Below, in pieces: positions 16,997 to 44,072 of a stretch of DNA of 64,000 nucleotides (within the stretch, counting starts at the first letter, position 1; each line of letters starts with the position of its first letter). Made by a program: the position numbers and the translations under genes. Source of the DNA: Microbacterium sp. SORGH_AS_0969 (lineage in GTDB: Bacteria; Actinomycetota; Actinomycetes; Actinomycetales; Microbacteriaceae); NCBI RefSeq assembly GCF_030818255.1, contig NZ_JAUTAG010000001.1, positions 992,001 through 1,056,000 on the forward strand, in the 5' to 3' direction. Below the pieces are notes generated by a model, which saw nothing but the letters and a program-made list of their open reading frames with translations, did not search any database and was not told where the DNA came from.

Positions 16997-17167
16997 GGTC
17001 CCTTCGACAAGCTCAGGGACCTCAGCGGTCGCCGCCTCACGACCCTCACCCGCGCGGGGAGCGGTCGCTGAGCCTGTCGAAGCGACCACAGGCGCGCGGA
17101 GCGGTCGCTGAGCCTGTCGAAGCGACCACGGGCGCGGGAAGCGGTCGCTGAGCCTGTCGAAGCGACC
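16997..17167. repeat. Four copies of the GGTC(C/G)CT...AG(G/C)GACC hairpin (family II)
   Basis: One copy with CCCT/AGGG arms lies at 16997-17021. Three copies with CGCT/AGCG arms lie at 17063, 17103 and 17143, exactly 40 bp apart. The arm change is compensatory. The same element forms an in-frame array at 42331-42625. Confidence 0.85.
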
Positions 17168-34350: not shown

Positions 34351-35619
34351 ATGTCACACGACATCGAGCAGCACAATGCTGCCCCTTCTGCAACGCGCCG
34401 CACGGTTCTCGCGGGTGCCGCGTGGTCCGTCCCGGTCATCGCGGCCGCGAGCATGGCCCCGCTCGCCGCTGCGTCCGACACCGTGACGCTCACCTTCGAT
34501 AAGTCGACCTACAACGGCACCGCCTGCAGCACGATCTCCGGTGCCTACGTGACGGCGACCGTCAACAGCGTCCCGACCGCGGGGAAGAGCGTGACGACGA
34601 CGCTGAGCAACGGCTATAAGTTCTCCGATGGCACGACGACGAATACGCAGGCGAGCGGGTCGAACGGGCGCGTGAACCTGCCGGCGATCAACGTGCCCGC
34701 CCAAGGAGGCGCGGCTACCCTGACTGGGACTTCGGGCCCCTCAGCAGCAACAACAACCGCCGCCATTCTGGGCACCGCCAACAGCAAGAACTACATCTAT
34801 CGACAGGGCACATCCAGGCTCACCCCCGCCGCTCCCAATGGCTCCACACCCCTGAACGCCAGCTACTTCCTCAAGAACGGCACCCTCTACCACTGGGAGG
34901 GAGGACAGATCGCGACAAACATCGCAGAAACGTCCACCGGATGGACCTACACAAACGGGGTAGATCAGATCGGAGTTCTGACAAAAGATGGGAAAAACTA
35001 CATCTATCGCCAAGGCACATCCAAGCTCACCCCCGCCGCTCCCGATGGCTCCACACCCCTGAACGCCAGCTACTTCCTCAAGAACGGCACCCTCTACCAC
35101 TGGTCCGGAGGACAGATCGCGACAAACATCGCAGAAACGTCCACCGGATGGACCTACACAGACGGCGTCGATCACATCGCAGTTCTGACAAAAGATGGGA
35201 AGAACTACATCTATCGCCAGGGCAAATCCAGGCTCACCCCCGCCGCTCCCGATGGCTCCACGCCCTTGAACTCCGGCTACTTCCTCAAGAACGGTGCCCT
35301 CTACCACTGGTCCGGAGGACAGATCGCGACAAACATCGCAGAGACGTCCACCGGATGGACCTACACAAACGGGGTAGATCAGATCGGAGTTCTGACAAAA
35401 GATGGGAAGAACTACATCTATCGCCAGGGCACATCCAAGCTCACCCCCGCCGCTCCCGATGGCTCCACACCCCTGGACGGTAGCTACTTCCTCAAGAACG
35501 GCACCCTCTACCACTGGGAGGGAGGACAGATCGCGACAAATATCGCAGAAACCTCCACTGGATGGACCTACACAAACGGAGTAGATCAGATCGGAGTCGC
35601 TCAGCCTCAGTCCTGCTGA
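34351..35619 (+). CDS. Tat-exported repeat protein B (same head, four 69-aa repeats)
   Basis: A 422-aa predicted exported protein of unknown function. The N-terminus (MSHDIEQHNAAPS, Tat motif TRRTVLAGAAWSVPVIAAAS) and Ig-like domain to about residue 125 are close to protein A. The C-terminal half is unrelated to A: four copies of a 69-aa unit with KNYIYRQG, LTPAAPDGSTPLNASYFLKN and GTLYHWSGGQIATNIAETS. YIYR and LYHW strands suggest a tachylectin- or propeller-like sheet. It ends QPQSC, again with a terminal Cys. Start by homology and GAAAGG. Confidence 0.65.
   Translation: MSHDIEQHNAAPSATRRTVLAGAAWSVPVIAAASMAPLAAASDTVTLTFDKSTYNGTACSTISGAYVTATVNSVPTAGKSVTTTLSNGYKFSDGTTTNTQASGSNGRVNLPAINVPAQGGAATLTGTSGPSAATTTAAILGTANSKNYIYRQGTSRLTPAAPNGSTPLNASYFLKNGTLYHWEGGQIATNIAETSTGWTYTNGVDQIGVLTKDGKNYIYRQGTSKLTPAAPDGSTPLNASYFLKNGTLYHWSGGQIATNIAETSTGWTYTDGVDHIAVLTKDGKNYIYRQGKSRLTPAAPDGSTPLNSGYFLKNGALYHWSGGQIATNIAETSTGWTYTNGVDQIGVLTKDGKNYIYRQGTSKLTPAAPDGSTPLDGSYFLKNGTLYHWEGGQIATNIAETSTGWTYTNGVDQIGVAQPQSC
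34788..35600 (+). repeat. Four tandem 207-bp near-identical coding repeats
   Basis: The marker CTACATCTAT recurs at 34791, 34998, 35205 and 35412, exactly 207 bp apart. Units differ at only a few positions (for example TSKL/KSRL, WEGG/WSGG, NASY/NSGY). Such near identity implies recent expansion or homogenisation and makes copy-number change likely. Confidence 0.9.
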
Positions 35620-40845: not shown

Positions 40846-41006
40846 CGCGCGCCCCTCTCGTTGCGATCGAGTGTCCAAGACACGCCGCTAGCGGCCCGGT
40901 CGATACGGCGTGTCTTGGACACTCGACCTTCAGGGGCGGGCGTCGGACCGCACGCGGCGTTGCTGGCCTCGGCGCGGGCGAGGGCGGCGGCGAGAGCGGG
41001 GGTCAT
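40842..41006 (-). CDS. 54-aa small ORF whose 3' half is a palindromic repeat
   Basis: The ATG at 41006 has an ideal GAAGGAGACGACGT leader. The first 25 residues ([20 protein letters not shown]...) look like ordinary coding sequence. The rest reads through family I copy f ([20 protein letters not shown]). The stop overlaps the amidase start (ATGA, 40845-40842), so translation through the hairpin would couple the two genes. Not recognised; an AtzG-like small subunit would be the expected neighbour but no match is evident. Confidence 0.5.
40867..40927. repeat. 60-bp palindromic element (family I, copy f)
   Basis: Arms TCGAGTGTCC/GGACACTCGA replace the TTGAG/CTCAA of most copies on both sides, a clean compensatory change. 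It lies inside the small ORF. Confidence 0.85.
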
Positions 41007-41052
41007 ACGTCGTCTCCTTCGGACTTCTGGCGCGGAAGGGGTCTCGCGGCGG

Positions 41053-41111
41053 CGAGTGTCCAAGAAACGCCGTTTGCGGCCCCCTCGATACGGCGTGTCT
41101 TGGACACTCGA
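41053..41111. repeat. 60-bp palindromic element (family I, copy g)
   Basis: Arms CGAGTGTCCAAGAAACGCCG with right arm CGGCGTGTCTTGGACACTCG. It lies in the gap between the acetamidase stop and the small ORF. Confidence 0.82.
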
Positions 41112-41136
41112 TCCTGGCGCCGACCACGCGGGGCCC

Positions 41137-42690
41137 TCATGCCGCACTCCCGTCTGCGTCGTTACCGGATGCCACGGCCTCGGGCTCCACCGACGGCACG
41201 CCCGCGAAGTCCGCCTCGCGGATCCGCGCGTGCACGCCCGAGACGATGTCGACGACCTGCGAGATGTCGAAGTCGGTTGCCGCGCTGAGGTAGGCGTAGG
41301 CGAGGTGCTCGTCCATTCCCCACCGCCCGTTCAGCAGGGAGAGCGAGGCACGCACGCACGCGCGCATCGCCTCGTCGAGGTCGACGTGCATCCCGGTGGG
41401 CACGAGGTACTCGGGCGTCCGGACCAGCGGACCCGTGACCTCGCCGAACGCCGCGCGAGCGGCATCCGCGGGGATCACCTCGAAGCGGAGCGTGGCGCGC
41501 AGCGAGGCCTCGAGAGCGGTGAGCGCCACCTCGCCGTCGCCCTGCGCGAAGTGCGGATCGCCGACGTACGCGAGCGCGCCCTCGACCTGGACGGGGAGGA
41601 ACAGGGTGGTGCCCTCGACGAGCAGGTTGATGTCGATGTTGCCGCCGTGGGTTCCCGGGGGCACCGAGTGCGGGCGTTCGTGGCCCGCGACCGCAACACC
41701 CATCGTGCCGAGGAACGGCGCGAGGGGAAACGCCACGACGGGCTCGCCGCCCTCGACGACCGGAAGGGTTCCGTGCAGGATGCCACCCCGCTCGTCGACC
41801 GCGGCGAAGACGCTGACGTTGTGCTCACCGCGCGGCAGCTCGCCGACGAGCGCGCCCTTGCCGTGGCGGTTCGAGATCACGCCGTACGGCACGCGCGGCA
41901 CGAGGGTCTCGACGGTGATCTTGAGCAGGTCGCCCGGGTGCGCTCCGGTCACGTGCACCGGACCGACGACCACGTGGGGTCCGTCGGCGACGGGGTCGCG
42001 GAGAACGGATGCCGCGATCTCGACCGCATCGTCGAGCACCTGTTCGCGCGGCACGCCGTGGGCCGCGAAGTACGCGCCGGGGTCTTTGCCCTGATCATCG
42101 AGGATTCCCTCGTGGCTGACGGTGTCGAAGGTCACGGTCTCGCCGGGCGCGATCTCGAGCACGGCGGCGTCGGTGGCGCAGGGAAGGCGACCCCAGAGGA
42201 CGGTGGTCGGGGTCGCGGCGAGGTAGTGGTCGCCGGGAATCGGGCCGGTGTGGGGTTGCAGGATCGGGAGGGGGGCGGGGCGGCCAGGGTGGCTGAGCTC
42301 GTCGGAGCCACCACCCGAGGTGGCGCGACCGGTCCCTTCGACAGGCTCAGGGACCTCGGGTGCGGCACCGGGTGCAGTGCGACCGGTCCCTTCGACAGGC
42401 TCAGGGACCTCCCCTTCGACGCCCAACGCAAAGCGACCGGTCCCTTCGACAGGCTCAGGGACCTCGGGTGCGGCACCGGGTGCAGTGCGACCGGTCCCTT
42501 CGACAGGCTCAGGGACCTCGCGTGCGGCACCGGGTGCGGCGCGACCGGTCCCTTCGACAGGCTCAGGGACCTCGGGTGCGACACCGGGTGCAGTGCGACC
42601 GGTCCCTTCGACAAGCTCAGGGACCTCGGGTGCGGCCTGACCGAGCTCAGGGACCTCGGATGCGGGCGGGCGCGCCTCGCCGCCGCTCAC
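41137..42690 (-). CDS. Acetamidase/formamidase-family hydrolase with repeat-derived N-terminus
   Basis: A 517-aa protein. Residues from about 130 on are a full FmdA/AmdA-type amidohydrolase: [53 protein letters not shown] and [16 protein letters not shown]. It would release ammonia from formamide or another short amide. The only in-frame start is GTG 42690, which overlaps the allB stop (GTGA). The first ~130 residues are therefore made of six 18-aa units ([18 protein letters not shown] type) encoded by family II repeats. Ordinary members lack this Pro/Glu-rich extension. Confidence 0.82.
42331..42625. repeat. Six family II hairpins at exact 54-bp spacing within a coding region
   Basis: GGTCCCTTCGACAGGCTC-type units start at 42331, 42385, 42439, 42493, 42547 and 42601. 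The 54-bp period equals 18 codons, so the reading frame is kept in every unit. A partial seventh copy lies at 42637-42659. The unit at 42601 carries ACAAGCTC like the intergenic copy at 16997. Confidence 0.92.
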
Positions 42691-44021
42691 GCGTCCACCG
42701 CCGCGGTCGCGCGGAGGATCTCGCGCCCCTGACGCTCCGTCACCGCGGAGCCGCGGCGGTACACCGACTCGCCGCAGAGCCAGGTCTCTCGCACGACGCC
42801 CGTGAGCGTCTGCCCATGCCACGGTGAGACCGGATTGCGGTACTCGAGGGCGGCGGCATCCACGACGAACTCCTCATCGGGAGCGAACGCGACGAGGTGC
42901 GCCGGGGCGCCCGGCTCGATGACGCCGAGCCCGTCGAGGCCCGCGATGCGGGCCGGCCCGGTCGTGAGGAGCGGCAGGATGCTCTCGAACGCCAAGCCCC
43001 GGGCGCGGGCCGTCGAGTGCACGGCCGACAATCCGGTCTGCAGGCCCGCGATCCCGCCCCAGGCGAGACCGAAATCGGGGTTGCCCTTCAGCTCGACGGT
43101 GGCCGGCGAGTGGTCGCTGACGATCGCGTCGATCGTGCCGTCGACGATCCCGGCCCACAGCAGATCGCGGTTGTCGCCGCCGCGGATGGGAGGGCAGCAC
43201 TTAAAGGCCCCCGCGCCGTCGGGCACCGCGTCGGCGTCGAGCGTCAGATAGTGCGGGCAGGTCTCGACCGTCAGCCGCACGCCCTCAGCCTTCGCGGCGC
43301 GCACGTCGTCGAGCGCTCCCCCGTCGGCCACGTGAACGATGTGTGCGCGGGCGCCCGTGCGGCGCGCCGCCTCGATGACGCGGCGGATGGCCGCCCTCTC
43401 GCTCAGGGGCGGGCGGCTGGCCTCGAAGTCGCGGTAGTGCGGCCCGAGCGCGCCGTCGGCGTGCAGGTGCGCGGGATCTTCGGCGTGGACGATCAGCAGA
43501 CCGTCGAAGATGGCGAGCTCGGCGAGGCAGCGCTCGAGCTGCTCGGCATCGAGGTGTCCGAACTCGTCGATGCCGCTCGGCGACAGGAAGCACTTGAAAC
43601 CCACGACCCCGGCGTCGGCGAGCTCGCGCAAGGATCCGAGATTCTCGGGCACCGCGCCACCCCAGTAGGCGACGTCGACCGCGAGCTTTCCCGCGGCGGC
43701 CGCGCGCTTGGCATCCAGTGCCTCGGTCGTGGTCGTCACGGGGAGGCTGTTCAGCGGCATGTCGACGATGGTCGTCACGCCGCCGGCGGCGGCTGCGGCG
43801 GTGCCGGTCGCGAAGCCCTCCCACTCGGTGCGGCCCGGTTCGTCGAGGTGCACGTGCGAGTCGACGAGGCCCGGCAGGAGCACGGAATCACCCGGCAGCA
43901 CCGTCTCGGCCGCGGCGTCGAACGGCTCGACCGCGGTGATGACCCCGCCCTCGCTCACGACTGTCGCGGGGCGGAACTCCCCGTCGAGATAGACCCGTCG
44001 TGCGGCGATCCGTGTGCTCAT
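42687..44021 (-). CDS. allB: Allantoinase
   Basis: A 444-aa cyclic amidohydrolase that opens allantoin to allantoate. Metal ligands: His56 and His58 in [17 protein letters not shown], carbamylated Lys143 in [10 protein letters not shown], the histidine of IVHAEDPAH and Asp in [20 protein letters not shown] is distinctive for AllB. Start 44021 is set by the leaderless TAGCGT (44034-44029) 7 nt upstream. It heads the operon with acetamidase, small ORF and amidase, and probably pucG-allC. Confidence 0.93.
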
Positions 44022-44028
44022 ACCGGCC

Positions 44029-44072
44029 ACGCTAAGCGCCCCGCGTTTCGCAGATGTAACCGTGATCAACAT
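44029..44072 (-). promoter_or_regulatory. allB promoter with purine operator S2
   Basis: -10 TAGCGT at 44034-44029, 7 nt from ATG. The palindrome ATGTA-N9-AACAT at 44054-44072 starts 19 nt upstream of the -10. On the minus strand it reads GAATGTT-N9-TACATC, matching S1 and S3. It abuts the stop of the racemase gene. Confidence 0.72.

Follow-up and report, generated by a model that had tools for sequence, protein, structure and literature searches.

The window, the whole 64,000-nucleotide stretch of Microbacterium sp. SORGH_AS_0969 DNA analysed here, carries on its minus strand an acetamidase gene that overlaps the end of an allantoinase-like gene. The minus-strand frame is open from position 42690 to the acetamidase stop, and the product scored 103.7 bits against PF03069 (FmdA_AmdA, curated cut-off 27), which places it in that family. 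Solved relatives found by sequence were distant (6 sequences, best E 1e-28). The name allB for the upstream gene was taken from a preliminary description of this DNA, and it was checked at family level only. Pfam matches identified the neighbours as an NCS1-type permease, an Asp/Glu/hydantoin racemase, an amidase with an AtzH-like domain, and a class V aminotransferase. Because of this permease, racemase, amidase and aminotransferase, the locus looks like a purine/allantoin operon, and the neighbours suggest that the acetamidase may serve purine or allantoin use. One related protein, P0090, has an acetamidase fused to an amidase domain. Past the acetamidase stop (40900-41130 of the window) lies a second palindromic repeat family, with cores like GTGTCTTGGACACTCG. 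The C-terminal tail VSKTP..FLGHSTPE of the 96% relative P0001 looks, by eye, like this second family read in frame. The features of the locus are as follows:

41137..42690, minus strand: acetamidase gene of the FmdA/AmdA family, read from GTG 42690 (517 aa); the repeats fall within its first 142 residues (PF03069 1.3e-29, no in-frame stop)
42687..44072, minus strand: allantoinase-like gene allB, its stop overlapping the acetamidase start as GTGA (Pfam Amidohydro_1 7.8e-23)
about 42636-42657, minus strand: 5' half element GAGGTCCCTGAGCTCGG (EVPELGQ), preceding the six units (from the sequence)
42627-42574, 42573-42520, 42519-42466, 42465-42412, 42411-42358 and 42357-42304, minus strand: six 54-bp units (TRF, core positions, unit translations)
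42424..42426, minus strand: TTG, in-frame alternative start, with two units downstream
42293-42307, minus strand: decayed inverted copy, 43 bp past the last forward core
17002..17162, no strand assigned: four intergenic copies of the core (TRF, motif positions, gene calls)

The array in the acetamidase leader is real. Read on the plus strand, the core CTTCGACARGCTCAG occurs exactly at 42336, 42390, 42444, 42498, 42552 and 42606, and TRF reported a tandem repeat at 42325-42636 with period 54, 5.8 copies and a score of 505. On the minus strand each of the six units carries the core CTGAGCYTGTCGAAG and reads, in frame with the acetamidase, as 18 amino acids that are nearly the same from unit to unit. 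Motif positions, TRF and translations thus bear out what the preliminary description had read here, six hairpins exactly 54 bp apart that encode in-frame 18-aa units. Over the whole window 11 core matches with at most 2 mismatches were found against 0.28 expected, a number reached in 0/100 shuffles. The same description had placed purely intergenic copies at 17 kb, and four cores do lie there between called genes (17002, 17068, 17108 and 17148); the three tandem ones share the core of the array, but have the stem GGTCGC/GCGACC in the TRF consensus. A stretch resembling the half element, EVPELGE, is found in the relative G070 (L011). Elsewhere in the window (34786-35597) there is a 207-bp tandem repeat of 3.9 copies with 92% matches, and its unit is a multiple of 3.

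Alignment of 126 non-redundant copies gave the element consensus CCGGTSSCTTCGACARGCTCAGSSACCT, 27-28 bp long. The five stem positions adjoining the core are complementary in 98, 94, 66, 91 and 89% of these copies, and the outer stems occur in compensatory versions: GGTCC/GGACC in 37 copies, GGTGG/CCACC in 22, GGACC/GGTCC in 4, and GGGGG/CCCCC in 3. Since the stem covaries, the element is a real stem-loop family. This genome (G000) holds 221 exact cores; across the genus at least one exact core was present in 60 of 99 genomes, with a range of 0 to 559 (559 in G063, 256 in G088), and the reversed control pattern occurred once each in 2 of the 99. Gene context was scored with our own codon-usage gene caller in 357.6 kb, made up of the window and 40 stretches chosen from among the copies listed. 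This sample is enriched, because the stretches were chosen for holding copies. In it, 123 of 190 copies (at most 1 mismatch) were intergenic, 15 lay inside coding segments (4 of those in the doubtful gene call L188), and 12 in C-terminal tails. N-side copies were counted separately for genes with a start downstream of the copy (32/190) and genes with none (8/190).

The element thus has the general properties of a REP, being a palindrome within the 20-40 bp range that can form a stem-loop, is present in high copy and is mostly intergenic. PMC3733652 describes GTAG and CGTC REPs as palindromes of 20-40 bp in high copy, mostly intergenic, occurring as dimers and clusters and unevenly spread between species. 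It also reports REPs within ORFs in several phyla, Rickettsia prominently, including clusters that code for 43-82 aa. The Microbacterium element resembles these REPs in its short palindrome, its copy number, its mostly intergenic position, its clusters and its occasional place in ORFs, but it has neither the GTAG nor the CGTC tag. GTAG/CTAC appeared in the 65-nt context of 8/126 copies with no conserved column, and CGTC/GACG flanked 51/126 copies, as against 68% of random windows. In the same source, CGTC REPs are without a dedicated transposase and have A-T pairs at stem positions 1 and 2; such pairs are absent here, where the outer stems of the main types start with GG/CC. Rickettsia palindromic elements (RPEs) are, according to PMC10969869 and PMC2229807, about 105-150 bp long (105-146 bp in PMC2229807) with an ORF of their own. 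They lie in frame within conserved enzymes of Rickettsia, and for one such enzyme both translation and activity were demonstrated. Our element is like them in being both intergenic and in frame inside conserved enzymes, where it is absent from most orthologues compared, and unlike them in being 25-28 bp long and in being read in at least four frames. MIRU, a mycobacterial repeat, sits at a -4 nt coupled stop/start junction and contributes an ORF that is coupled to the gene downstream (PMC12548453). The acetamidase array is likewise an actinobacterial repeat at a -4 nt, probably coupled junction; it differs in lying inside the downstream ORF, past GTG 42690, where it would lengthen the downstream protein. 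Palindromic repeats as such have been reported in Actinomycetota, since the RepRanger table lists palindrome candidates in three genomes of that phylum (PMC12306157); none of the three is a Microbacterium, a name with 0 occurrences in that source. A text search of mostly open-access papers, motif strings included and with figures and supplements set aside, came upon no account of this family.

REP/RAYT systems and REPINs are made of short palindromes, inverted pairs and arrays. The Microbacterium element forms all three, and it departs from REP/RAYT systems in the transposase: Y1_Tnp (PF01797), the RAYT domain, had 0 matches in this genome and was not found in 98 of 99 genus genomes, and the single genome that bears it holds one motif copy. 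Mobilisation by a RAYT was rejected on these grounds. We also considered that the element might be specially built for readability. Five of its six frames are open, but 5 or 6 open frames occur in 73.5% of shuffles, and this idea was likewise rejected. As the element behaves like the known kinds but does not fit their tags or lengths, we file it as a REP-like palindrome family of its own in Microbacterium. Intragenic REPs are already known from elsewhere (PMC3733652).

GTG 42690 had been taken as the only in-frame start, which does not hold: the longest ORF begins at GTG 42822, and TTG 42426-42424 is in frame. This TTG is the sole other in-frame ATG, GTG or TTG from GTG 42690 to the conserved core. 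Between it and the core the window has no ATG, GTG or TTG; a start at the TTG would therefore still bring at least two units into the protein, and all six would be translated if the conserved GTG 42690 is used.

To compare orthologues we took 80 named relatives (the best 80 of 538 confirmed stretches) and 30 genus-genome loci, our own included. A close set was formed from the window and 29 named loci (L069-L097, from the best 80 of 538) with a core identity of at least 87%. An ATG or GTG start of the acetamidase overlapped the allB stop by 4 nt in 30 of the 30 close loci. Across the best 80 of 538 the overlap was present in 67 (64 by 4 nt, 3 by 1 nt); the remaining 13 comprised 4 without a usable allB match, 2 with allB and acetamidase in a single frame, and 7 gapped. 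The in-frame leaders of the close loci had 23 different lengths, the shortest 4 aa (MSVP) and the longest 142 aa, and in some relatives MSVP or MSAVP is the entire leader, followed by the conserved ILQP core. The start looks fixed because the 4-nt overlap is kept in all 30 close loci, including these relatives. The earlier statement that the start overlaps the allB stop, so that the repeats would be translated if the native start is used, is supported by this comparison, which gives indirect evidence for translation of the leader in this gene. The acetamidase N-terminus itself tolerates additions, since allB and acetamidase form a single reading frame in L032, L103 and L107 and in protein P0117.

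The preliminary description had also proposed comparing orthologues for the presence and copy number of the array, and its content did vary among the close loci. Element copies with at most 3 substitutions numbered 28, in 13 of the 30 close leaders. The 19 forward copies shared one frame, VPEPVEGT, and the 9 inverted ones another, GGFDxLSH, with no exception even among eroded copies; EVREPVEGTG, EVTEPVDGTG and VVFEPVEGIG are examples of eroded copies still in frame. Frame 0 of the leaders is partly open through the way in which the leaders were taken; the result is the overlapping start in that frame, 30/30. If there was a single ancestral insertion, the shared frame counts as one event, not 28. 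A forward-to-inverted spacing of 43 bp is common to the window, L074, L075, L080 and L081, and two state changes are enough to account for where the element is present on a tree of allB plus core with 18 rows. The shared pair in five loci and the two changes on the tree fit one old in-frame insertion that was followed by growth, erosion and loss. More than four copies were found in no other leader, either among the 30 close loci or in the 17 other genus genomes of the tree. No copy was detectable in L069 and L070 (core 95%; leaders of 13 and 16 aa), in protein P0001 (96% over 72% of the query), or in the leaders of the 51 loci further away (L098-L148) within the best 80 of 538. Outside the element copies the leader is weakly coding-like in composition, with a mild third-position GC excess (GC by codon position 0.79/0.76/0.86, vs 0.78/0.48/0.92 in the core). 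Among 18 genomes, which are not phylogenetically independent, those with more exact motifs overall tended to have longer leaders (Spearman 0.69, p = 0.0017) and more element copies in the leader (0.75, p = 0.0003). The five zero-copy genomes are one clade, and the correlation was not significant on the four independent pairs; as there are only four, it is not independent evidence.

Hairpins in the mRNA between the two coupled genes had been proposed as well. The array mRNA folded no better than its shuffles (z -1.12, 15 of 100 shuffles at least as stable), and an unusual degree of structure in this mRNA was rejected. Between 42200 and 42800 no match to an Rfam family came up to the gathering score. 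The AlphaFold2 model of the protein was poor overall (mean pLDDT 53.6, 37 sequences) and too weak for placing the leader. In it the leader has no secondary structure and block means of pLDDT 37-45, which is only suggestive of disorder.

These observations can be brought together in one scenario, which we hold with good confidence to be the best explanation: an element that settled in frame, expanded, and was tolerated in the acetamidase leader. A small REP-like stem-loop element would have multiplied in some Microbacterium genomes, and in the ancestor of an M. testaceum-like clade a forward-inverted pair would have settled in frame just past the acetamidase start codon. The acetamidase would be translationally coupled to allB, its start set by the allB stop and its body without another start nearby, and for this reason only in-frame changes would have survived. 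The leader may later have grown, shrunk and decayed. In this genome the 54-bp unit would have been duplicated in tandem to six, giving a 142-residue tail rich in Pro, Glu, Gly and Ala that would be translated throughout and is probably disordered, and most likely tolerated as a neutral addition. The preliminary description had left it between expansion that is tolerated and expansion that is used. The first fits better because leader content varies widely and decays, includes no detectable copy in the close relatives L069 and L070, and rises with the genome-wide load; use of the extension fits less well.

Selection for the extension would mean that the repeated unit or its hairpins tune the amidase in stability, assembly or ratio to allB, the number of units acting as a length dial. 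The eroded EP(V/I)(E/D)G units kept in frame in several species speak for this, as do the six nearly identical 54-bp units here, although near-identity is also expected from recent duplication. With relatives that manage on 4-5 aa leaders, with wide variation and decay, and with the link to the genome-wide element load, we consider selection unlikely. Still less probable is an array that is untranslated or mostly so, with a start downstream (TTG 42426 or a non-standard codon near the core) and repeats that serve as spacer or mRNA hairpins. Shorter homologues do exist and the TTG is in frame, and Di Nocera et al. (2013, PMC3733652) regarded the majority of N-terminal REPs in P. putida, C. koseri and S. 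maltophilia as possibly not coding. Against this stand the overlap with the allB stop in 30 of 30 close loci, those with 4-5 aa leaders among them and each leader in frame, and the unexceptional mRNA fold. The TTG start would still leave two units translated, and the 25 nt ahead of it hold GAAGGGA only far upstream of the usual Shine-Dalgarno distance. That study, in which the word Actinobacteria is absent, doubted most N-terminal cases of its three species, while here a conserved overlapping start supports one; for the acetamidase its caution thus appears to be answered, by indirect evidence. An assembly or sequencing artefact, named earlier as a possible refutation, is scarcely credible. Tandem repeats are prone to miscounting, but the genome is one 3.94-Mb contig, and independent genomes hold copies, in other versions, at the same place and in the same frame.

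A tolerated in-frame expansion of this kind would offer, for an actinobacterium, a clear comparative example of a REP-like repeat inside a protein whose start is apparently fixed by overlap with an upstream stop. It suggests that such repeats can lengthen proteins without breaking them. As the leaders form a natural graded series from 4 to 142 aa, what these additions cost, or what use they are, is directly measurable.

In-frame copies are also present inside at least three other enzymes. Three genes with inside copies were compared with 17 clade genomes; fragmentary or weak matches were left out (G009 for the carboxyltransferase, G007 and G044 for the dehydrogenase). In RlmN (L178:3001, G000) the stretch GGKTLRQAQGPGQVPERV stands against GGKKRDDHSLDRV or close to it in most orthologues, an addition of 15 nt found in 2 of 18 rows, this genome and its sister G070. 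An AccD-type carboxyltransferase (L152:5688, G000) has IVDPSTGSGTGEFLEV where others have IVDAGEFLEV or close to it (+18 nt), in 2 of 17 rows, this genome and G063. In an acyl-CoA dehydrogenase (L157:3001, G000) an element stretch takes the place of ATRTADGWSL or close to it (+18 nt), in 2 of 16 rows, this genome and G058. Counting the acetamidase leader as well, the element occurs in no fewer than four reading frames (VPEPVEGT, GGFDxLSH, STGSGT and LRQAQGP).

In the carboxyltransferase and the dehydrogenase the copies lie at the same aligned nucleotide in non-sister species, and the sisters G070 and G073 and the G006/G072 group lack them. Flank identity was not raised at these same-site copies (G084 left out for the carboxyltransferase), and gene trees rejected a G000+G063 clade for the carboxyltransferase (AU 3e-8) and a G000+G058 clade for the acyl-CoA dehydrogenase (AU 0.002). 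Transfer of whole genes was rejected on both counts. The same-site copies may stem from independent insertion, at a site that is preferred or uniquely permissive, from short gene conversion, or from old presence followed by losses. A bolder reading would make the element a coding-compatible mobile palindrome that still moves by a non-RAYT process. In separate lineages it would repeatedly hit the same nucleotide of a permissive loop in a conserved enzyme, and it would be a standing source of short in-frame insertions and disordered tails. We put this forward tentatively, and think it rather doubtful. With an element that has no known transposase and copies at identical nucleotides in non-sister species, the question of how REPs multiply becomes testable.

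A P-type ATPase-like gene (L169:2448-5105) holds five copies of the element in more than one frame, two of them ahead of the E1-E2 ATPase domain and the other three in the part that matches the Hydrolase domain.
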